Assembly: GCA_001567275.1 (NCBI GenBank)
Contig: LNBX01000048.1
Location: 62,001 to 126,000, forward strand
Length of the DNA stretch: 64,000 nucleotides
Direction of reading: 5' to 3'
Source: Bacteroidetes bacterium OLB10
GTDB taxonomy: Bacteria > Bacteroidota > Bacteroidia > AKYH767-A > OLB10
Shown piece by piece: positions 24,375-36,346 of the stretch. The notes beneath the pieces are model-generated. The model was not told where the DNA came from, ran no database searches, and saw nothing but the letters and a program-made list of their open reading frames with translations. Position 1 is the stretch's first letter. Every line of letters begins with the position of its first letter. Both the position numbers and the translations under genes were made by a program.

Positions 24375-25316
24375 TTAGCGTTCCAGGAAAACATCCATAT
24401 TTTTCACTTCTTCGCAAACCATTGCAATACCGTCAGGAAGGTTGATACGATGTTTCCATCCCAGCGAATGCAGTTTGCTTACATCAAGCAATTTACGAGG
24501 AGTACCGTCAGGTTTGGAAGTATCAAAAACCAAATCCCCTGTATAGCCAAGTGTGTTTTTAACAAGTAAAGCCAGTTCTTTGATACTGATATCCTCACCA
24601 GTTCCTATGTTGACGGTAGATCGGTCGCTGTAATTCTGCATCAGGAAAAAACATGCATCAGCCAGATCGTCCACATGCAAAAACTCCCTTCGTGGCGAAC
24701 CTGTTCCCCATATTTCTACTGAAGGAAGACTATTCTGTGATGCATCATAAAATTTACGAATCAATGCGGGCAATACATGTGAGTTTTTCAGATCATAATT
24801 ATCATTTGGTCCATACAAATTAGTTGGCATGGCCGAAATATAATCCACACCATACTGGTCACGAAAAGCTTCACACATTTTCAATCCTGCAATTTTTGCA
24901 AGCGCGTATGGTTCGTTAGTCGGCTCAAGCGGACCAGTAAGAAGATATTCCTCTTTGAGGGGCTGGGGCGCCAATTTTGGATAAATACAGGAAGAACCAA
25001 GAAACAATAACTTTTTTACCTTATGATCAAAAGAGCTTTTAATCACGTTACATTCTATGGCAAGATTCTCATAAATAAAATCAGCACGATAAGTATTATT
25101 GGCAACAATGCCTCCTACTTTGGCAGCAGCAAGAAAAACATATTCGGGCTTTTCCGATTTGAAAAAATCTTCAACAGCAGCCTGATTTCTCAGGTCAAGT
25201 TCTTTGGAGGTGCGGACAAGTATATTGGAGAATCCATCTTTTTCAAGTCTGCGAACAATGGCAGATCCCACCATTCCACGATGGCCTGCCACAAAAATTT
25301 TAGCACTCTTTTGCAT
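24375..25316 (-). CDS. fcl: GDP-L-fucose synthase
   Basis: A 313-residue short-chain dehydrogenase/reductase that epimerises and reduces GDP-4-keto-6-deoxymannose to GDP-L-fucose using NADPH. The nucleotide-binding motif GHRGMVG is at 11-17 and the catalytic triad is Ser108-Ser109 (GSSCIYP), Tyr137 and Lys141 (YALAK). [23 protein letters not shown] is split by family-typical residues for GDP-sugar binding. It follows gmd by 5 bases, giving the complete two-step pathway from GDP-mannose. Confidence 0.95.
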
Positions 25317-25321
25317 AGTAC

Positions 25322-26437
25322 TTACGCTTCGTGATAATTAATAATCTTATGTCCCCCTGCTCTGAGATATTGGTCGCGTTTGAAAAGTTCCAAATCACAA
25401 TGCATCATTTCTTTAACGATAGACTGCAGATTGTGTTTAGGTTCCCAACCCAATATTTTTTTTGCTTTAGAAGGATCGCCAATGAGTAATTCTACTTCTG
25501 AAGGACGATAATATTTAGGGTCAATACGCATAACCACATTGCCCTGTGGCAACTGATAAGCGGGATTATTACATTTTTTTACCACTGCTATTTCTTTCTC
25601 TTCAGAGCCACTGAATTCTATTTCAATTCCCACTTCTTTAAATGCAAGAATGATAAAATCACGTACCGTTGTAGTTACGCCTGTTGCCAGCACAAAGTCA
25701 TCAGGTTTATCCTGTTGAAGCATCAGCCACATTCCTTCTACATAATCTTTTGCATGACCCCAATCGCGTTTTGCATCAATATTTCCCATATAAACAGTAT
25801 CCTGCAATCCTAAGGCAATACGTGCTACTGCGCGGGTAACTTTACGGGTAACGAATGTTTCGCCACGCAATGGTGATTCGTGGTTGAATAAAATTCCGTT
25901 GGTTGCAAACATATTGTAAGCTTCGCGGTAGTTGACCATAATCCAGTATGCATAAAGTTTGGCAACAGCATAAGGTGAACGTGGATAAAAAGGGGTTGAC
26001 TCACGTTGAGGCACTTCCTGTACCAATCCATAAAGTTCACTTGTTGAAGCCTGATAAATGCGGCATTTATCTGTCATGCCCAGCATACGAACTGCTTCAA
26101 GAATACGCAAAGCGCCAATGCCATCTGCGTTGGCTGTATATTCAGGCATATCAAAACTTACACGTACATGGCTCATGGCACCAAGATTGTAAATTTCATC
26201 CGGTTGAACTTCCTGAATAATGCGGATAATGTTGGCAGAATCTGTAAGGTCGCCATAATGCAATTTGAATTTTACATTCTTCTCATGCATATCTTCATAT
26301 AGATGGTCAACCCTTTCGGTGTTAAAAAGCGAACTTCTGCGCTTAATGCCGTGAACTTCATAGCCCTTTTCTAAAAGTAATTCACTCAGGTAGGCGCCAT
26401 CCTGTCCGGTTACACCCGTGATTAAAGCTTTTTTCAT
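25322..26437 (-). CDS. gmd: GDP-mannose 4,6-dehydratase
   Basis: A 371-residue NADP-dependent dehydratase making GDP-4-keto-6-deoxy-D-mannose, the precursor of GDP-L-fucose. [10 protein letters not shown] starts at residue 8; [15 protein letters not shown] (34-48) is the Gmd tetramer/NADP segment; catalytic Thr132, Glu134, Tyr156 and Lys160 lie in STSELYG and SPYAVAK. Immediately upstream of fcl, so one operon for fucosylated surface polysaccharide, divergent from the export operon. Confidence 0.96.
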
Positions 26438-26631: not shown

Positions 26632-28941
26632 ATGAATAATCAAAAAGTTGTTAAGAACCAATCAATTATTGATGCTAAGGATGTAAAAACCGCATTAAAT
26701 CTGGTGCTGAAGAATTGGTACTGGTTTCTGATTTTTATTTCCATGGGAGTAGCCGGAGGCATTTTCCTCTATTATAAAACCATCCGCATATATGGAGCTG
26801 AAGCCAAAGTATTAATCACTCCAACTAAGAATGCATTCAAAGATGCCCTTTCCACAAGTCTGCCAATGGGGCCAAACAAAGAAGAGGTGTCCAATGAAAT
26901 TGAGATACTTTCTTCTACCCGTTTAGTGAGTGAAGCCATTAATAAACTTAATCTTGATATTTCATATTATATCAAAGGCCGGTTGAAAACAGGAGAAGTG
27001 TATAAAGGCACACCTTTTAGTGTTGAAGGAAAAGTGCTTGATGAATCGTTTTATGGCACTCCGTTCAACATTCGCATCATTGACAAAAACTCTTATACGC
27101 TTGAAGTAAGTACTCCAACTTATTCCTTTAAAAAGACATTGAAGTTTGGTGAACCTGTTGTTACCGAAAAATTCAGCATTGTAGTTAACGGAAGAGAAGA
27201 TGCCATAGAACACAATCCGAAATTCAGTGAATTTCAGTATCTGTTTATAATAAATAATCACCGTTATTTAGTAAAAAAATATAAAGATGCATTGAGTCTG
27301 GAAAAGGATGAGGATGCATCCATAATTAATATCAGAATTGAAGATGAGGTAGAAGAAAAAGGAGTAGATTTTCTGGATACGCTAACCAAACTTTACATTA
27401 ATTATTCTATTGCAGTTGCAAGAGAAATCAATGAAAATTCACTTCGGTTTATTGAAGATCAACTGAAATATACCGAAGATCAGCTGAATGGAGTTGAAAC
27501 GAATCTGGTAGAATATCAGCAACAGAGCGGAGCAATTGATGTAACCAACCAGCAAAGTACGCTTGTAAAAGAAAAAATGGATCTTCAGGGAGAAAGAGCA
27601 AAACTTACAGCCCGACTCAGTTCTGTAGATTATGTTTACAATCAACTCACCAGTGGTGGAAGTGATTTTTCTACCCTTACACCGGCATTATATGCTGATC
27701 AGGGAAATCCGGGATTAGCATCAGCCTTTCAGGACTTAACGGCTCTGATGCAACGCAAAACAAATCTTTCCTTCAGCCTGACTCCCAACAGTCCGCAAAT
27801 GAAAGAAATTGATGGTCAGATTAACAAGGCTAAAGAAAATCTGATAGGCATTGTGATGAATATCAGAAAAGACTTGGTAATGCAGATAAATCTCATCTCT
27901 CAACGTGAAGGAAATTTTGCTGCATCACTCAACAGGATGCCATCCACCATTAAAGGTTTGAGCGATATTACAAGGAAGAAAGAGATCAATGAAAAAATGT
28001 ATCTGTTCCTCTTGGAGACAAGAGCTCAAACAGTTATTGCCAAAGCTGCTATAGTACCTGATAAATCTATTCTGGAACCGGCTTCCAGTATAGGACTACT
28101 AAAACCAATCAGAAACAAGATGTTGTTTACAGGTGTTGGCGTTGGTTTGGCTTTAGCTTTCCTTGTAATTTTCCTCAAGAGTATTTTCCTCAATTACATC
28201 TATACGAAAGAAGATCTTGCAGATATTACTCATCAACCAATTATTGGAGTTATCGGTAAAAGCCCTGAAGCCAAGAAGGACTATCTCGTGGTTCATTCTT
28301 CTCCGCAGTCGCTTACAGCAGAAGCATTCAGGGTTATTCGAACGAATCTTTCTTATTTTGCTCCTAAATCTGCTTCAAAAGTTATTCTGTTTACCTCTAC
28401 AATTTCAGGTGAAGGAAAGACATTCTGCGCTGTGAATACAGCAACTACATTGGCAAGAGCGAAGAAAAAGGTTGTTATTATTGACCTTGATTTGCACAAA
28501 CCCAAGCAGGCAACTGCCTGGAATATGACCAATGATACGGGCGTGACATCTTATCTGGTTGGTAAAGCCAATTTGAATGAAATCATTAAAGACACTCCTG
28601 TAGAAAACCTGAAAGTGATATTAAGTGGACCAAAATCTCCTAATGCATCTGAATTAATTTTAGATCCGATGATGGAACAACTCATTCAGGAACTGAAAGA
28701 ACATTTTGATTACATATTGCTTGACATGCCGCCTGTGGGATTACTGTCAGATGCACTGGTAATGATGAAGCAATCTGATTTGAATCTTTATATAACAAAA
28801 TCAGGCTACAGCAAGAAAGATTTTGTTGAGGTAGCACATCAGTTAATGGAGAAAAATAATATCAAGAGTCTGAGCTTTATCTTAAATGGTGTTAATCCTA
28901 AGAACATGCCGGTAGGCTATGGCGGAGCTTACTACAAATAA
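26632..28941 (+). CDS. Wzc-like polysaccharide co-polymerase and tyrosine kinase
   Basis: A 769-residue inner-membrane protein controlling chain length and export of surface polysaccharide. Wzz-type periplasmic domain between two membrane helices (about 33-52 and 504-526), with coiled-coil in between (for example QLKYTEDQLNGVETNLVEYQ). The cytoplasmic BY-kinase domain has Walker A' SGEGKT ending at Thr597 and Walker B LLDMPPVG near 697. The C-terminus has only a short tyrosine group (GYGGAYYK) instead of a long cluster, so autophosphorylation may be limited. It heads the operon and is 15 bases from the ABC gene. Confidence 0.92.
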   Translation: MNNQKVVKNQSIIDAKDVKTALNLVLKNWYWFLIFISMGVAGGIFLYYKTIRIYGAEAKVLITPTKNAFKDALSTSLPMGPNKEEVSNEIEILSSTRLVSEAINKLNLDISYYIKGRLKTGEVYKGTPFSVEGKVLDESFYGTPFNIRIIDKNSYTLEVSTPTYSFKKTLKFGEPVVTEKFSIVVNGREDAIEHNPKFSEFQYLFIINNHRYLVKKYKDALSLEKDEDASIINIRIEDEVEEKGVDFLDTLTKLYINYSIAVAREINENSLRFIEDQLKYTEDQLNGVETNLVEYQQQSGAIDVTNQQSTLVKEKMDLQGERAKLTARLSSVDYVYNQLTSGGSDFSTLTPALYADQGNPGLASAFQDLTALMQRKTNLSFSLTPNSPQMKEIDGQINKAKENLIGIVMNIRKDLVMQINLISQREGNFAASLNRMPSTIKGLSDITRKKEINEKMYLFLLETRAQTVIAKAAIVPDKSILEPASSIGLLKPIRNKMLFTGVGVGLALAFLVIFLKSIFLNYIYTKEDLADITHQPIIGVIGKSPEAKKDYLVVHSSPQSLTAEAFRVIRTNLSYFAPKSASKVILFTSTISGEGKTFCAVNTATTLARAKKKVVIIDLDLHKPKQATAWNMTNDTGVTSYLVGKANLNEIIKDTPVENLKVILSGPKSPNASELILDPMMEQLIQELKEHFDYILLDMPPVGLLSDALVMMKQSDLNLYITKSGYSKKDFVEVAHQLMEKNNIKSLSFILNGVNPKNMPVGYGGAYYK

Positions 28942-28956
28942 ACCTGAATCGCATTT

Positions 28957-30750
28957 ATGGCATTAAGCAAAAAAAATTATTCTTCCTCACAGGCTTTCAG
29001 GCAAACTTATCAGAGCCTTAAAGATCATCTTTCCTCATCACAAAAGAAAAAACTGAAGTGGATTGCTTTATTGATTTTTCTCTCAGCAGTATTGGATGTT
29101 TTTGGACTTGCATCTGTTTTGCCACTTGTAAAAATGGCTACTGAACCTCAGGTGATTCATACAAACAAATATTTCAGCATTGTGTATGACAACCTTCATT
29201 TCACCAGTGATAAAAATTTTATGGTATTTTTTATTGTGGTAATACTGTTATTCCAGTTCTTCAAAACAGGATTTGGAATTTTTGTAAATTACATTGAAGG
29301 GAAATTTATGGCAGATGTTGCCAATAATATTTCACGAAATCAGTTTTCAAAATATTTTTCTTTGTCTTATTTCAATTTCAACAGTGTAAAATCATCACGA
29401 ATAATCAATCACGTGCAACAAAATCCTGCTTCGTTTACGGCATGGGTAATGCTGCCTATACTCATGTTGTTTTCAGAGTCCATTATTCTGATATTTATTG
29501 TAACGCTTATTGCAGTATATAATCTGAAGTTATTTCTTTTTATACTGATGATTATAGGGCCTGCTTCATATCTGTTGTATAAATCTGTAAACACCAAGAA
29601 TGAGCAGATTGGCCGCGGACTGGATAAAATGTTTCCACAGGCACTGGCAGCTATCAATAATTCCATTATGGGTTTTGTTGACATTAAGCTGGCTAATAAA
29701 ATTGATTTTTACAGAGAGAAGTTTCTGAAATATCAGAAGGAATATCACAACCTCTCCATGAGTTCTATTGTCATCAATATGATTCCTTTCAGAGGTTATG
29801 AATTGGTGGCTATTTTGGGTATCGTTGTGATATTTGTTTACGCAATTTTTATTGAAGGCGGAAGTCAGGATGTGATAATGATGGTAGGTGCATTTGCTGC
29901 AGCAGCTTATCGTTTGATGCCTTCGCTAAACCGTATCATGAATGCCATTATGCAGGTCACCAAAAATCAGGTTGCCATAGAAAACCTGAATGAGTATAAC
30001 GAGCTTTATGTAAAACAATCGGTGATGAACCGCAATGTGCCTATCCCCTTCGAAAAAGAAATCACTTTTGAAAACATCAGCTTTACTTTTCCTAAATCCA
30101 AGGATCCTGTTCTTAAAAGTATTTCATTTACGGTAAAAAAGGGAGAGAAAGTTGGGTTTGTAGGAAGTTCAGGGTCAGGTAAAACTACACTGATGAATAT
30201 TCTGTTGCGTTTCTTTGATGAGGATAATGGCCGCATTTTAATTGACGGTCAGCCATTGAAAGAAGACAACCTGGAATACTGGCGAAGTATGATAGGCTAC
30301 GTGAAACAGGATATTTTTATGATAGATTCCAATATCATGGAAAATGTAGCCTTTGGAGAAGACAAAGTAGATAAACATCAACTTGACCTTGCTGTCAAAC
30401 AGGCATCGCTTGAAGATTTTGTAAAAACATTGCCTAAAGGTTATGATACAGAAGTTGGAGAAAGAGGATCACGCCTGTCAGGTGGACAACGTCAGCGAAT
30501 AGGCATTGCCCGTTCACTCTACCGAAATGCACAAATTCTTGTGTTTGATGAAGCAACCAGTGCTCTCGATACTCAAACAGAGCGTGAAGTAAGTGAGGCT
30601 ATTGACTCATTGTCTGACACCAATAAAACAATATTTATTATCGCCCATCGTATAACCACCCTTAAGAACTGTGACCGCATTTACGAACTGAAAAACGGAG
30701 AAATTTCCGGTGTTTATACTTACAATGAGCTGGTAGAAAAAGTTATTTAA
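28957..30750 (+). CDS. ABC transporter, fused permease and ATPase (MsbA-like)
   Basis: A 597-residue half transporter. The N-terminal membrane domain has six predicted helices (about 35-320). The nucleotide-binding domain has Walker A GSSGSGKTT (about 404-412), signature LSGGQRQR (about 507-514), Walker B ILVFDEATSALD and the switch IIAHR. By position it likely flips a lipid-linked glycan or polysaccharide intermediate. No Wzx flippase or Wzy polymerase is in the window, so its role in export may be central. It is followed after 9 bases by the toroid gene. Confidence 0.9.
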   Translation: MALSKKNYSSSQAFRQTYQSLKDHLSSSQKKKLKWIALLIFLSAVLDVFGLASVLPLVKMATEPQVIHTNKYFSIVYDNLHFTSDKNFMVFFIVVILLFQFFKTGFGIFVNYIEGKFMADVANNISRNQFSKYFSLSYFNFNSVKSSRIINHVQQNPASFTAWVMLPILMLFSESIILIFIVTLIAVYNLKLFLFILMIIGPASYLLYKSVNTKNEQIGRGLDKMFPQALAAINNSIMGFVDIKLANKIDFYREKFLKYQKEYHNLSMSSIVINMIPFRGYELVAILGIVVIFVYAIFIEGGSQDVIMMVGAFAAAAYRLMPSLNRIMNAIMQVTKNQVAIENLNEYNELYVKQSVMNRNVPIPFEKEITFENISFTFPKSKDPVLKSISFTVKKGEKVGFVGSSGSGKTTLMNILLRFFDEDNGRILIDGQPLKEDNLEYWRSMIGYVKQDIFMIDSNIMENVAFGEDKVDKHQLDLAVKQASLEDFVKTLPKGYDTEVGERGSRLSGGQRQRIGIARSLYRNAQILVFDEATSALDTQTEREVSEAIDSLSDTNKTIFIIAHRITTLKNCDRIYELKNGEISGVYTYNELVEKVI

Positions 30751-30759
30751 CTATCCGAC

Positions 30760-31047
30760 ATGATACGCAAATTAGTTTCTCAGCTACGAATGCGTTACCT
30801 GAACCTGCGGGCGCAGACTTCAGCAGTTGACTTATCGGATGACGAGCGATTAATTTTAGCTTTGAAATGGTTTCAGCAGACACTGTTACCCGGAGGCGGC
30901 AGTGCTGCCAAGTATTCCATGATGTTTAATAAATGGTTTCCCTCCTACCCCGAAACAACTGCTTTCTGGATAAACACACTCATCTATCTTCAACGAGAAA
31001 AAAAAAGAAATATTTTCAACTGTATTTGGAGAAAGACCAATTGTTGA
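30760..31047 (+). CDS. Alpha/alpha-toroid protein, N-terminal part (frameshifted gene)
   Basis: The first 95 residues of a protein that continues at 31055-31912. Segment PGGGSAAKYSMMFNKWFPSYPETTAFWINTLIYLQRE reads as helical repeats of a prenyltransferase/squalene-cyclase or glycosidase-like toroid (motif given here in part: PSYPETTAFW). After the A9 run at 30998-31006 the frame turns to RNIFNCIWRKTNC and stops. Removing one A gives KKEIFSTVFGERPIVDELVKW running directly into the next part, so the two are one gene of 383 residues. Confidence 0.65.
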   Translation: MIRKLVSQLRMRYLNLRAQTSAVDLSDDERLILALKWFQQTLLPGGGSAAKYSMMFNKWFPSYPETTAFWINTLIYLQREKKRNIFNCIWRKTNC

Positions 31048-31054
31048 TGAATTA

Positions 31055-31912
31055 GTGAAATGGTTGATGACCACACAACGCAAAGATGGAACATTTCCGG
31101 GTTCTTATGGTGATTATAAAAATCAACCTCCGCGTGTATTTAATAACGGACAAATCATTTTTGCTCTCATAGATTATTATGAGCATTTTGGAAATGAAAA
31201 ATGTTTAGAAGCAGCTATTCAAAGTGCTGATTGGATTCTGAAAGTGCAGGATGGTGATGGCGCCTGGCGACAATTTACATTAAACCAGTTAAGTTCCAAT
31301 ACACGAACTGCATGGGCATTAATCCGATTAGGAAAACTTACCGGTGAGAACAAATATTTACAAGCAGGCAAAGCCAACATCAACTTTGCATTGCAATTGC
31401 AGGACAAGAATGATTATTTCATTGACAATGGATTCAGTGAAAATGAAATACCAAGTACACATACCATCGGATATGCATTACGCGGAATTGTAGGCGCAGG
31501 AATAGATTTACAGGAAGATAACTGGATTAACGCTGCTGAACGAGCCTATCAGCGCATAATGCCTTTGGTTGGTAATGACGGGTTTTTAGCAGGTGAACTG
31601 GATGAAGAATGGAAATCGGATGCAACGTTCTGTTGTTTACCCGGAAATTGCCAGCTAAGCGTGGTTGGATTTGCTCTTGAATCACACACGCATCGTCAAG
31701 AATATGCATTAACTGCATCAAAATTATTGGACTATGTAAAGGGAAAACAATTATTATCACATTCGCCAATGGTAAACGGAGGTGTTTCGGGATCATGGCC
31801 GGTATCAGGCGGATATTGTTCGTATGATATTCCTAACTGGTCAGCCAGATTCTTTGTAGATGCACTCCTATTGGAGGAACAGTATATCAATAAACAGAAG
31901 AAAATATCCTAA
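31055..31912 (+). CDS. Alpha/alpha-toroid protein, C-terminal part (frameshifted gene)
   Basis: The remaining 285 residues of the gene beginning at 30760. Repeated helix pairs with aromatic/glycine loops (QRKDGTFPGSYG, QDGDGAWRQF, GVSGSWPVSGGY) indicate an (alpha/alpha)6 barrel such as those of terpene cyclases, uronyl epimerases or glycan-active enzymes. I cannot name the reaction; location in the polysaccharide operon suggests a glycan or lipid-glycan substrate. The ATG at 31055 is internal to the original frame. WecB starts about 40 bases later. Confidence 0.65.
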   Translation: MKWLMTTQRKDGTFPGSYGDYKNQPPRVFNNGQIIFALIDYYEHFGNEKCLEAAIQSADWILKVQDGDGAWRQFTLNQLSSNTRTAWALIRLGKLTGENKYLQAGKANINFALQLQDKNDYFIDNGFSENEIPSTHTIGYALRGIVGAGIDLQEDNWINAAERAYQRIMPLVGNDGFLAGELDEEWKSDATFCCLPGNCQLSVVGFALESHTHRQEYALTASKLLDYVKGKQLLSHSPMVNGGVSGSWPVSGGYCSYDIPNWSARFFVDALLLEEQYINKQKKIS

Positions 31913-31953: not shown

Positions 31954-33081
31954 ATGAAAAGGATTTTAATAGTAGTAGGTACACGCCCCAACTTTATAAA
32001 AATTACACAATTCAAAAAAATCAATCATCAGATGGGCCTCCCATTTGACATTAAGATAGTTCATACCGGTCAGCATTACGACAGCAAAATGGCTGATATC
32101 TTTTTCGATCAGTTTGAACTCACTCCTGATTTCTGGCTCAATATTCCTGCAGGATCACCCAACTCACAGATGGCAGAAATCATGTTACGTCTGGAGAAAG
32201 TAATGATGGAATACAAACCTGATTTACTGATGGTAGTTGGCGATGTAAATTCTACATTTGCTGCTGCACTTACTGCCAATAAAATGAACACGAAAATTGC
32301 TCATATTGAAAGCGGGTTGCGAAGTAATGACAGAACCATGCCTGAAGAAATTAACCGTATTCTGACCGATGCAATTACAGACTATTTCTTTATTACCGAA
32401 GACAGCGGTCAGGAGAATTTAATTCTTGAAGGAAAAAAACCGCAGCAGATGTTTTTTGTGGGAAATACTATGATAGATACACTGGTTGCCTTTGATCATA
32501 AAATTCAACAGTCTGATATATTGAGTAAATTAAATATCTCTTCAAAAGAATTTGTGTTGATGACTATGCACCGTCCCGCAACTGTTGACTTTAAAGAAGG
32601 GCTGAAAAAATTATTTGATATTATCAGACTCATTACTAAAAATCACAAACTTGTTTTCCCGATACATCCACGCACAATGCACCGAATTGAAGAATTTGGA
32701 TTGCAGAATGAAATAAAAAATAATGACAAGCTGATATTGACTGAGCCGCTTGATTATTTTGCATTTCAGAAACTGATTCATGATTGTGCATATATTGTAA
32801 CAGATAGCGGAGGAATTCAGGAAGAAAGTACCTTCCGAAGAATTCCCTGCCTTACTTTAAGAGCCAATACTGAAAGGCCAAGTACGGTTGAGATTGGTTC
32901 CAATGAATTAATGCCATTTGACATACACGCCATTTCAAAGAAAATTAATTCCATTACGAATGGTAAATATAAAAAGGGAGCTATACCTCCGCTTTGGGAT
33001 GGAAAATCAACTCAACGCATTTTGAAACATTGTATTAATATACTTGATGTAAAGACCAGAATCACCTCACTTACTACATGA
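31954..33081 (+). CDS. wecB: UDP-N-acetylglucosamine 2-epimerase (non-hydrolysing)
   Basis: A 375-residue enzyme interconverting UDP-GlcNAc and UDP-ManNAc for surface glycans. VGTRPNFIK begins at residue 8, HTGQHYD at 38-44, VGDVNST near 93, HIESGLRS near 115, and the UDP-binding TDSGGIQEE (about 284-292) precedes RANTERP. One difference from many WecB proteins is the N-terminal RPNFIKI in place of RPEAIKM, which also occurs in bona fide epimerases. The stop overlaps the next start (ATGA), showing translational coupling. Confidence 0.93.
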   Translation: MKRILIVVGTRPNFIKITQFKKINHQMGLPFDIKIVHTGQHYDSKMADIFFDQFELTPDFWLNIPAGSPNSQMAEIMLRLEKVMMEYKPDLLMVVGDVNSTFAAALTANKMNTKIAHIESGLRSNDRTMPEEINRILTDAITDYFFITEDSGQENLILEGKKPQQMFFVGNTMIDTLVAFDHKIQQSDILSKLNISSKEFVLMTMHRPATVDFKEGLKKLFDIIRLITKNHKLVFPIHPRTMHRIEEFGLQNEIKNNDKLILTEPLDYFAFQKLIHDCAYIVTDSGGIQEESTFRRIPCLTLRANTERPSTVEIGSNELMPFDIHAISKKINSITNGKYKKGAIPPLWDGKSTQRILKHCINILDVKTRITSLTT

Positions 33082-35294
33082 AACAATTATCCTGGCTTAA
33101 CCCCAAAGACTCAGAACTGCTTTCCGGATTGAATAATAATTCTCCTTTTCAATTCTTACCCGGATTCAGTAAAATCTATAAAGAATATTCCGGAGAAAAA
33201 GTTTTTTTGATTTACTCTGAGAATCTGAAGGCATTTTTACCAATTCGTTTATTCACTTCTCATTTCATTAAGTTCATACAAATATTGCATGCACCTATTC
33301 GTGACAATAAGGAACTTAATTCAGAAGAACAACTGCAGTTTTTTAATGAGTTTATTGAATATTGCAAGACCAACAATTTGTGCGAGCGACTGGTACAACC
33401 ACATCCCTATGGAATTTTAAGTGCTATTCCTAATGGATCAAAATATTGCGAGTTCGGAACTTATATTACAGACCTGGCAACAAAATCTGATGAAGAAATC
33501 TTTAAACAGTTTCATCCTAAATATCAAAAGGCAATACATCATACTGAAAAATCCGGTGGTGTAGTAAAATTCGGCATAGAAGTATTAGAGGATTTCTATA
33601 AATGCTATGAGCATACCATGCGCAAAGCCGGTGCGATTTCAGAAAACATCCAGTATTTTAAAGCTTATTGTAAATATCTTGGTTCCGAAAATGCAACTCC
33701 TGCTGTAGTTTATGATAATGGAAATCCTGTGGGTGGAATTTTTGTCGTTCACACAAATTATTCTGCATTATGTACACATGCAGGAAGTATGGGCGATACC
33801 AAGTTGTATGGCTCAATGAAATATTTACACTTTGAAATGATGAAAAGAATGAAATCACTCGGTGTAAAGAAATATGATTTGGTCGGAGTACGAATAGGTA
33901 ATAATGATCCTGCTTTAGAAGGTATCTTTCGTTTTAAAAAAGGTTTTGGAGGGGAGTTGAAAAAAGGATATCTATGGAAGATTGATATTGATCCGCTTAA
34001 GACAAGAGTTTATGATTTCCTTCTTAAATTAAGACATCCGGGCAATCTGTATAAAGACATCATTGATCAGGTTAATTTATCTTCATCAAGAGGAATGCAC
34101 ATTTTAATCATTCCATCCTGGTATAAATCTATTACAGAGCCTGTGCTGGGAACTTTTTTTGAAGAGCAGGCGCGCACCTTAATGAAAGCAGGTCATAAAG
34201 TGGGAATCATTTATCCTCAGTTTGCCTCTGTAAGCTCCCTGTTTCAAAAAAAGGATGAGATCGTGAGTTTTGTTGATGACAACGGGCTGCCTACATACTC
34301 TATGGTACATCAGGCATACATTCCGAAAATGCGTAAACTAAGTTACAGAATTTTCAATGAAGCCGTACAGCGTATTTACAATAAATATACTCAAAAGTAT
34401 GGTATTCCTGACATCATACATGCCCACAGTATTTTTCATGGAGGTATGGCAGGCTATTATATTGCAAAGAAAAACCATCTCCCATTTGTCATAACTGAGC
34501 ATCTGACCTCATTTATGACCGGTGATATTAGCCATCCTGAAGATATTGAACTATCCGGTGAGATTTTTTGTAATGCTGATGCCGCATTAATTGTAAGTAA
34601 GAATTTCAAAAATGATATTGAAAATTCCTTACATCTGAGAAATGATACGTTTAAAGTAATTCCTAATCTGGTTGCTGATATTTTCTTTGATGATTTTAAA
34701 ATCAAAACATATCAGAATGGAGAGACTTTTGTCTTTTTCACCAATTCGTTTCTTCTGCCCAGAAAAAATCACAAACTTATTTTCAATGCACTTGAAGTAT
34801 TATTAAAAAAAGGAGTTAAGAACTTTGAGTTAAGAGTTGGAGGTGATGGCCCGTTAAGAAACTCCTTACAAACAATAGTTAAAGATTGCGGCCTTGACAA
34901 TTACGTAAAATTTTTAGGTGCACTGAACAGGCAGCAAGTTAAGACAGAAGCTTCCAATTGCCACTGCTTTTTGCTGACAAGTACCTACGAAACATTCGGA
35001 GTAGTACTTATTGAAAGCCTTGCCTCAGGGCGTCCTGTTATTACAACAGACTCTGGTGGACCAAGAGATTTTATCAATAGCACCAATGGAATCATCCTGA
35101 AAGAGCAAACCCCGGAATGTTTAGCTGAAGCTATGATTCAAATGATGCAGAATTATAAGAATTATAATCAGGAGCAACTTTCAAAAGATTGCCGGCAATT
35201 ATTTTCAGAACAAAAAATTGAAGGCGACATTGAACAAATGTATCGTAAAGTATTAGCTGAGTTCCCCAATAAAACACGTATTGTTTCCAAATAA
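33078..35294 (+). CDS. Fusion of FemAB-like acyltransferase and GT4 glycosyltransferase
   Basis: A 738-residue two-domain protein. Residues 1-339 are a FemAB/GNAT-fold protein: HPKYQKAIHHTEKSGG near 150 and KKYDLVGVRIGNNDPALEGI near 275 match the XrtA-associated/FemX-like group that attaches amino-acyl or acyl groups to lipid-linked sugars. Residues 340-738 form a complete GT4 transferase: N-terminal MHILIIPSWY, HAHSIFHGG, and C-terminal STYETFGVVLIESLASGRPV with the donor-binding glutamates. The join is at Met340 (34095), immediately preceded by AAGAGGA, so it looks like two genes merged in frame. It overlaps wecB by 4 bases and the deacetylase by 1. Confidence 0.85.
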   Translation: MKQLSWLNPKDSELLSGLNNNSPFQFLPGFSKIYKEYSGEKVFLIYSENLKAFLPIRLFTSHFIKFIQILHAPIRDNKELNSEEQLQFFNEFIEYCKTNNLCERLVQPHPYGILSAIPNGSKYCEFGTYITDLATKSDEEIFKQFHPKYQKAIHHTEKSGGVVKFGIEVLEDFYKCYEHTMRKAGAISENIQYFKAYCKYLGSENATPAVVYDNGNPVGGIFVVHTNYSALCTHAGSMGDTKLYGSMKYLHFEMMKRMKSLGVKKYDLVGVRIGNNDPALEGIFRFKKGFGGELKKGYLWKIDIDPLKTRVYDFLLKLRHPGNLYKDIIDQVNLSSSRGMHILIIPSWYKSITEPVLGTFFEEQARTLMKAGHKVGIIYPQFASVSSLFQKKDEIVSFVDDNGLPTYSMVHQAYIPKMRKLSYRIFNEAVQRIYNKYTQKYGIPDIIHAHSIFHGGMAGYYIAKKNHLPFVITEHLTSFMTGDISHPEDIELSGEIFCNADAALIVSKNFKNDIENSLHLRNDTFKVIPNLVADIFFDDFKIKTYQNGETFVFFTNSFLLPRKNHKLIFNALEVLLKKGVKNFELRVGGDGPLRNSLQTIVKDCGLDNYVKFLGALNRQQVKTEASNCHCFLLTSTYETFGVVLIESLASGRPVITTDSGGPRDFINSTNGIILKEQTPECLAEAMIQMMQNYKNYNQEQLSKDCRQLFSEQKIEGDIEQMYRKVLAEFPNKTRIVSK

Positions 35295-36346
35295 TGAGTA
35301 AGCAGAAGAAACAGGTTCTGATTACCTTCGATTATGAGTTATTTCTCGGCAACCGAAGTGGTTCAGTGGATGATTGTTTAATCAAACCTACCAATCAAAT
35401 TCTAGATGTCATAGAAAAACACGGTGAACGAGCTATATTCTTTATAGATACCACTCACCTGCTTACTCTTGAGAAATATGCAGAAAAATATGATGCATGC
35501 TCTAATGATTTGGAAACAGTTTCTGCACATATTGCGTCCATAAGCAAAAGAGGACATGAAATTTTTCCTCACCTGCATCCTCACTGGCTGGATGCAGAAT
35601 ACCTGCCACAAACAAATGAATGGAAACTAACCGACACTGATAAATACAGATTTTTTCATTTGAACGAAAACGAAAGAGAGTTGATATTTACAGGATCGGT
35701 AGAGTTGCTAAACAAATTTATTAAACCACACAATCCCGAATATATACTAGATGGATATCGAGCAGGAGGATGGTGTATTCAGCCATTTTCAGCATTTGAG
35801 CCGTATTTTAAAAAACATAAAATAAAATACGACTTCAGCGTGCTTGGCAAATTTTATTTGTTTAGCAATGCGCAGTATTTTGATTTCTCTGAAGCACCTG
35901 AAAAATCGGTTTATCATTTTCAGAATGATATTGTAAAAGAAAACGACAAAGGATTATTCACGGAGTTAAATATATCTTCTGTTTTTATTCCAAAGAATGT
36001 TCAGTTCTTAAACAAAATTTTTCAGAAGTTCTACTTTAAACTTACCGGAGATCATAGCTTCAACCGTGGAGAGGGACAAATTGCAGTGAAGATAGACCCT
36101 TCGATTGTGAAGCCAACGACTCATGGATATGATATTTTAAATTCGAACTGGGAGCGTGTGGCTATTGAATTAATGTCGCAGATAAAAATGCCTGTATATA
36201 AGAAGTTTATTCAAGAACAGGATTATATGCATTTTATATCACATCCTAAAATGCTGACTCAACACAACATCAGAATGTTTGATAATTTTTTATCCTATGC
36301 GGGCAGCAGATATGAAATAGAAACCGATTTCCGTAAAATGGTCTGA
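35294..36346 (+). CDS. NodB-type polysaccharide deacetylase
   Basis: A 350-residue protein of the polysaccharide deacetylase fold (CE4-like). The metal/catalytic motifs are Asp13 in TFDYE (motif 1), His88 with HLHPH at 93-97 (motif 2) and YRAGGW at 155-160 (motif 3, Arg156). A late HFISHPKML near 331 supplies the final histidine motif. No signal peptide, so it probably acts in the cytoplasm on a lipid-linked or nucleotide intermediate, as in XrtA-type polysaccharide loci. It starts on the last base of the FemAB-GT4 gene and is the last gene of the operon. Confidence 0.88.
   Translation: MSKQKKQVLITFDYELFLGNRSGSVDDCLIKPTNQILDVIEKHGERAIFFIDTTHLLTLEKYAEKYDACSNDLETVSAHIASISKRGHEIFPHLHPHWLDAEYLPQTNEWKLTDTDKYRFFHLNENERELIFTGSVELLNKFIKPHNPEYILDGYRAGGWCIQPFSAFEPYFKKHKIKYDFSVLGKFYLFSNAQYFDFSEAPEKSVYHFQNDIVKENDKGLFTELNISSVFIPKNVQFLNKIFQKFYFKLTGDHSFNRGEGQIAVKIDPSIVKPTTHGYDILNSNWERVAIELMSQIKMPVYKKFIQEQDYMHFISHPKMLTQHNIRMFDNFLSYAGSRYEIETDFRKMV

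Follow-up and report, generated by a model that had tools for sequence, protein, structure and literature searches.

The psc1 locus of Rubrivivax gelatinosus, an exopolysaccharide (EPS) locus of the XrtA/PEP-CTERM type, is described in excerpts of its report as an almost consecutive series of genes for a tyrosine kinase, an ATPase, a UDP-GlcNAc 2-epimerase, a PEP-CTERM deacetylase, a FemAB-related protein and a group-1 glycosyltransferase (PMC3684757). In Caulobacter, HfsK is a putative acyltransferase; among proteins of known structure its closest homologues are Fem proteins, and the excerpted account suggests that it might acylate amines exposed by HfsH (PMC5362036). The locus analysed here lies in a window of 64,000 nucleotides from Bacteroidetes bacterium OLB10 and shares with psc1, as far as the excerpts describe the latter, the set of kinase, UDP-GlcNAc 2-epimerase, deacetylase-like, FemAB and glycosyltransferase genes. 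The features concerned are as follows (positions of the window, all on the + strand):

26632-28941, +: Wzc-like chain-length determinant with ATPase domain (Pfam Wzz and AAA_31; gene order in relatives)
28957-30750, +: ABC transporter with fused membrane and ATPase domains, candidate glycolipid flippase (Pfam ABC_tran and ABC_membrane; gene order in relatives)
30760-31912, +: toroid-fold (GH127/terpene-cyclase-like) gene, frameshifted in the window and in one frame in three congeners
31954-33081, +: WecB, non-hydrolysing UDP-GlcNAc 2-epimerase (TIGR00236, 314.1 bits against an equivalog cutoff of 210.15)
33078-34076, +: FemABX-type acyltransferase domain, residues 1-333 of the fusion (Pfam, PDB profile matches, invariant residues)
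34077-34094, +: linker codons 334-339, LSSSRG (alignment with split relatives)
34095-35294, +: GT4 glycosyltransferase domain, residues 340-738, and stop codon (Pfam pair, E-x7-E)
35294-36346, +: polysaccharide-deacetylase-like (NodB-like) protein (weak PF01522 score, relatives, motifs)

The fused frame and its operon

A single open frame runs on the + strand from the ATG at 33078 to the TAA at 35294 and comprises 738 codons (738 aa). Its first half matches the Pfam family FemAB (PF02388) with 53.0 bits at a cutoff of 24, the best stretch being residues 215-295, and also Acetyltransf_6 at residues 166-274. The family profile of this half matches FemX chains in the PDB (E 2.4e-17 to 3.4e-12) as well as an aminoacyl-tRNA-dependent peptide synthase, a significant match that places it among the FemABX proteins; F286, K287, F290 and G291 are invariant in all 25 rows of the FemAB family alignment. 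The second half is a complete member of GT4, with (i) Glyco_transf_4 on the N-terminal side (358-532); (ii) Glycos_transf_1 on the C-terminal side (546-697, 105.9 bits); and (iii) an E-x7-E pair (E299 and E307 in domain numbering), invariant in 16 of 16 rows, which we take to be a motif with a catalytic role. An earlier note made from the sequence had described the frame as an in-frame fusion of a FemAB-like acyltransferase and a GT4 enzyme, and the one 738-aa frame with both sets of Pfam domains bears this out.

The GT4 part begins at Met340 (codon 34095-34097), with the heptamer AAGAGGA immediately 5' of it. Where split relatives have a stop codon and a spacer, the alignment shows the linker of the fusion. 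The near-invariant tail DIIDQ (window 34056-34070, residues 327-331 of the fusion) lies at the C-terminal end of this FemAB subfamily: in all 23 split FemAB sequences examined it, or a near variant, stands at a distance of 2 to 13 residues from the stop, and it is retained in the fusion, where GT4 starts nine residues past it. That so conserved a C-terminus tolerates an addition of 399 residues suggests that this end docks locally or faces a partner. The AlphaFold model of the fusion had a mean pLDDT of 39.2, with four rows as input (the window, its fused relative and two separate genes of a split relative), a value too low for the model to be used, also for the two GNAT-like subdomains of the FemABX fold.

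The stop codon of wecB overlaps the ATG of the fusion (ATGA, 33078-33081), and the stop of the fusion overlaps the ATG of the deacetylase-like gene (TAATG, 35292-35296), so these three genes are probably translationally coupled. Across the family, and with some variation, the genes keep the order Wzc, ABC transporter, toroid protein, WecB, FemAB, GT4 and deacetylase-like protein; the fusion sits in a conserved exopolysaccharide operon. In one genus (g5) and some others this GT4 is missing beside FemAB, and FemAB and deacetylase stand with a GT2 enzyme instead. The toroid-fold gene differs from that of three congeners by one base in an A run near 30998-31007, either a real pseudogene or an assembly error. 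Divergent from the operon, at 24375-26437 on the - strand, are genes for a GDP-mannose 4,6-dehydratase and an epimerase/dehydratase, which may supply GDP-fucose.

Origin and maintenance of the join

Four genomes were compared within the genus of the window (G000, the window's own genome, and G001 to G003); all genomes examined are draft assemblies. The fusion, which had been proposed as something to look for in other genomes, is present in G001, a second species of the genus, in an identical layout at 93% identity and with no internal stop; at the nucleotide level the two differ clearly, with 92% identity in GT4 and 87% in FemAB. The congeners G003 (78%) and G002 (64%) carry FemAB and GT4 as two genes. 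Across the family the two genes lie side by side in ten genomes, fused in G000 and G001 and split in eight (G002, G003, G006, G008, G011, G012, G015 and G016). These eight keep a stop between them, in agreement with the proposal that the parts are former neighbours that fused. The earlier note had weighed a genuine fusion against relatives uniformly split; most are indeed split, and the fused G001 makes the join young and lineage-specific, not false. In trees G000 and G001 group together, followed by the split G003 and then G002, with support of 100/99 for GT4 and 91/86 for FemAB. Both remaining congeners and another six genomes of the family are split, so the sequences compared indicate a single, recent and lineage-specific fusion event in the ancestor shared by two species of one Bacteroidota genus.

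An assembly or sequencing error that deleted a stop codon would produce the same frame, and the draft assemblies, together with a one-base homopolymer frameshift about 3 kb upstream of the join, give some reason to consider it. The join, however, recurs in a second, clearly divergent assembly, and the spacing speaks against a simple error. An in-frame stop lies one to three codons ahead of the GT4 start in G002, G008 and G011, and FemAB and GT4 are in different reading frames in G003, G006 and G015. The stretch between the GATCAR codons and the GT4 start measures 24 nt in the two fused genomes and 14-18 nt in G003, G002, G008, G011 and G015. With 6-10 nt more than in these five split relatives, the join required several bases inserted or replaced, not one missing or miscalled base. 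With the shared join, the spacer lengths and the divergence of the two assemblies, an indel artefact has a negligible probability, and the frame at 33078-35294 is a true FemAB-GT4 fusion. The caution about indels, raised because of frameshifts elsewhere in the window, applies to the toroid-fold gene at 30760-31912 and not to the join.

Beyond these two species, the 20 FemAB matches of a 395-genome class sample include no FemAB-GT4 fusion, and neither do four distant FemAB matches of a 395-genome phylum sample, the latter judged by open-frame length only. Scans of viral contigs with the GT4 and FemAB profiles gave no relatives, and the titles and abstracts of the open-licence PMC literature searched hold no description of a FemAB-glycosyltransferase fusion. 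Several long GT4 frames proved, by domain scan, to be of other kinds and free of FemAB: GT4 with a methyltransferase in G255 and G122, and GT4 with an extension matching no family in G338. In G085 two GT4 stretches lie within one frame, again without FemAB, and an apparent FemAB-GT4 overlap in G408 is an ordinary GT4 of 392 aa.

Purifying selection acts on both halves. In the comparison of G000 with G001, dN is about 0.058 and dS 0.57-0.63 in FemAB (dN/dS about 0.1), and dN is about 0.015 and dS 0.40-0.43 in GT4 (dN/dS about 0.04). The eight-residue linker, codons 332-339, shows one synonymous and zero nonsynonymous differences, the latter having a neutral probability of 6e-4 to 2e-5 at the gene's own dS. 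This conservation could alternatively reflect an initiation signal at Met340, so that it does not by itself prove a single product.

Such a signal would fit a fusion that is a near-neutral read-through, with translation initiating or reinitiating at Met340 and GT4 made mainly as a separate protein. This methionine is the ancestral start, the N-terminus of GT4 is canonical, and the 24 nucleotides of the join are conserved. Against this stands the purine run itself. The earlier note's AAGAGGA does not survive as a relic ribosome-binding site: it abuts the ATG directly, a spacing unusable for a Shine-Dalgarno element; Shine-Dalgarno-like tetramers occur upstream of one of the 26 window genes examined; and the split congeners have AAAAGCT or TTTTTT at this position. 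The linker has also gained no stop or frameshift, which is weak evidence by itself (P 0.19-0.32). Separate production of GT4 is on balance unlikely.

The deacetylase-like partner and other fusions

The putative deacetylase encoded after the fusion scores 19.3 bits against PF01522, below the cutoff of 23.1. Ten of the 26 members of its family match PF01522 at E <= 0.01 (best 2.6e-6), and three match TIGR03006, the deacetylase of the XrtA system. D13 is present in all 26 and H93 with H97 in 25, the exception being the row from G005; the window's protein keeps all three and thus the conserved Asp and HxxxH pattern, residues that presumably form a metal site. Drawn from a weak Pfam score, relatives and conserved motifs, the assignment as a deacetylase is weaker than those of WecB, GT4 and FemAB. 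An AlphaFold model from three rows had a mean pLDDT of 32.8, too low to be of use.

This protein accompanies FemAB widely. In the class sample (FemAB profile E <= 1e-30, deacetylase profile E <= 1e-40) FemAB occurs in 20 of the 395 genomes, the deacetylase in 51 and both in 19, with a Fisher p of 8e-18 that is uncorrected for phylogeny and comes from profiles partly built from the same genomes. Among genomes outside the profile-building, FemAB is found in five (G086, G185, G232, G243 and G275), and four of these also carry the deacetylase (p 2.6e-4, likewise phylogeny-uncorrected); FemAB and deacetylase are direct neighbours in G232, G243 and G275 and both at contig starts in G086, and in G185 the deacetylase profile has no match at E <= 1e-40. 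The deacetylase gene beside FemAB in G232 (L135:3605-4809) appears split over two frames in the assembly. At nine FemAB loci from other families, WecB is nearby in all nine and the deacetylase in seven.

Within the family, with the deacetylase counted at an identity of at least 40% (the G018 copy is cut by a contig end), 19 of 24 genomes have both genes and three have neither (G004, G017 and G005, where the deacetylase copy is degenerate), giving a Fisher value of 0.0076, uncorrected for phylogeny. G009 has an intact deacetylase and no FemAB; G023 has FemAB and only a 31%-identical deacetylase paralogue. In G008 and G015 the deacetylase is on a different contig. A strict rule by which loss of FemAB leads to decay of the deacetylase fits G005 and is contradicted by G009.

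The same components are also merged in other combinations, known from single draft genomes or a few relatives. In G005 (L046:9242-11383), a genome with no FemAB match, the orthologous GT4 is fused to the deacetylase-like domain in a protein of 713 aa, and this domain has lost H93, H97 and the SHPK motif. Deacetylase-GT2 fusions of 696-707 aa occur in four genomes of one genus, G007, G022, G014 and G020 (L054:10584-12698, L056:1369-3483, L057:6752-8842, L059:11576-13699); the deacetylase and GT2 genes are separate neighbours in G021, of the same genus, and in G013, G019 and G009. In another family, a different, unrelated-looking GT4 is fused before an intact deacetylase-like domain in proteins of 772-785 aa (G334, G392 and G081; L121:2470-4788, L120:11464-13815, L129:11169-13526). 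The merging of FemAB, GT4, GT2 and deacetylase in differing pairs is the main ground for thinking that they act together. It is conceivable, if rather doubtful, that in these Bacteroidota the enzymes for sugar addition, N-deacetylation and N-acylation are physically assembled into one multienzyme unit, four kinds of fusion joining different pairs of its members, and that its product, an exopolysaccharide whose mannosamine-type sugar is N-acylated or N-aminoacylated, is made in a channelled reaction.

Proposed function and comparison with known systems

The best explanation, to which a probability of about 0.55 is given, is a genuine recent fusion in a conserved exopolysaccharide operon that would serve ManNAc transfer, deacetylation and re-acylation. 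The gene for a FemABX-type acyltransferase would have become continuous with the downstream GT4 gene through loss of a stop codon and a small insertion. WecB would make UDP-ManNAc, and the GT4 half may transfer this N-acetylhexosamine, on the cytoplasmic side, to a lipid-linked oligosaccharide. The N-acetyl group would then be stripped off by the deacetylase-like protein, the product of the next gene, and the freed amine could receive another acyl or aminoacyl group from the FemAB half; the ABC transporter would flip the product afterwards. A fusion of transferase and modifier would hold both in a fixed ratio and close together. The earlier idea of one enzyme that adds a sugar and an acyl or aminoacyl group to the same lipid-linked intermediate is plausible but incomplete, because the deacetylase, FemAB's usual partner, would be needed first to free the amine.

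FemABX relatives differ in donor, and within the best explanation the FemAB half may be an N-acyltransferase whose donor is acyl-CoA or acyl carrier protein and not aminoacyl-tRNA, which may also be true of proteins of the HfsK type. The authors of the HfsK study, in the excerpted text, propose acylation of a polysaccharide and leave the donor open (PMC5362036); the aminoacyl-tRNA-dependent peptide synthase and FemX among the profile matches point the other way, and this donor is given slightly less than an even chance. The FemX proteins, among the closest solved structures by sequence, also raise the prospect that the FemAB half serves peptidoglycan cross-bridge synthesis on lipid II, its location in a polysaccharide operon being incidental. 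This role is very improbable: WecB and the deacetylase-like protein accompany FemAB across the class, FemAB is here fused to a GT4, and its presence in so few of the class genomes is unlike that of a core cell-wall gene.

As an event, this true and lineage-specific fusion is ordinary, and its operon is of a known type; the fusion is informative through its partners and the other fusions. The FemAB-GT4 join, the near-constant deacetylase-like partner and the repeated fusions point to an N-acyl group swap on a freshly added aminosugar, and the fusion offers one polypeptide for testing this reaction.

The window's FemAB is a relative of the FemX/FemA aminoacyltransferases by sequence profile, including the FK..FG region, but unlike them it stands in an exopolysaccharide context and is fused to a GT4. 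With the XrtA system the locus shares the matches of its deacetylase family to TIGR03006. Its FemAB, in contrast, reaches 42.8 bits against TIGR03019 (XrtA FemAB), where the cutoff is 260.35, and the window's genome (96% complete) has 0 matches to the exosortase family PF09721. Since no exosortase was found and FemAB falls far below that cutoff, the locus is not assigned to the XrtA system, although by analogy it may work like an XrtA-type EPS locus. Unlike in psc1, as excerpts of its report present it, FemAB and glycosyltransferase are fused in the window and the deacetylase comes after them. A further likeness is to the Caulobacter holdfast enzymes HfsH (a deacetylase) and HfsK (a FemAB/GNAT-like N-acyltransferase), a pair whose proposed substrates, in the excerpted accounts, are the same sugars, lipid-linked or in the polymer (PMC5362036, PMC6372794). 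According to these excerpts the C-terminus of HfsK is important, and the C-terminal tail of the window's FemAB is conserved, a comparison made by description; the excerpts describe no fusion of the Caulobacter enzymes, whereas the window's FemAB is fused (PMC5362036, PMC6372794). Exopolysaccharide loci of bacteria as unlike as Rubrivivax, Caulobacter and the Bacteroidota lineage of the window contain FemAB-like proteins with putative reactions.
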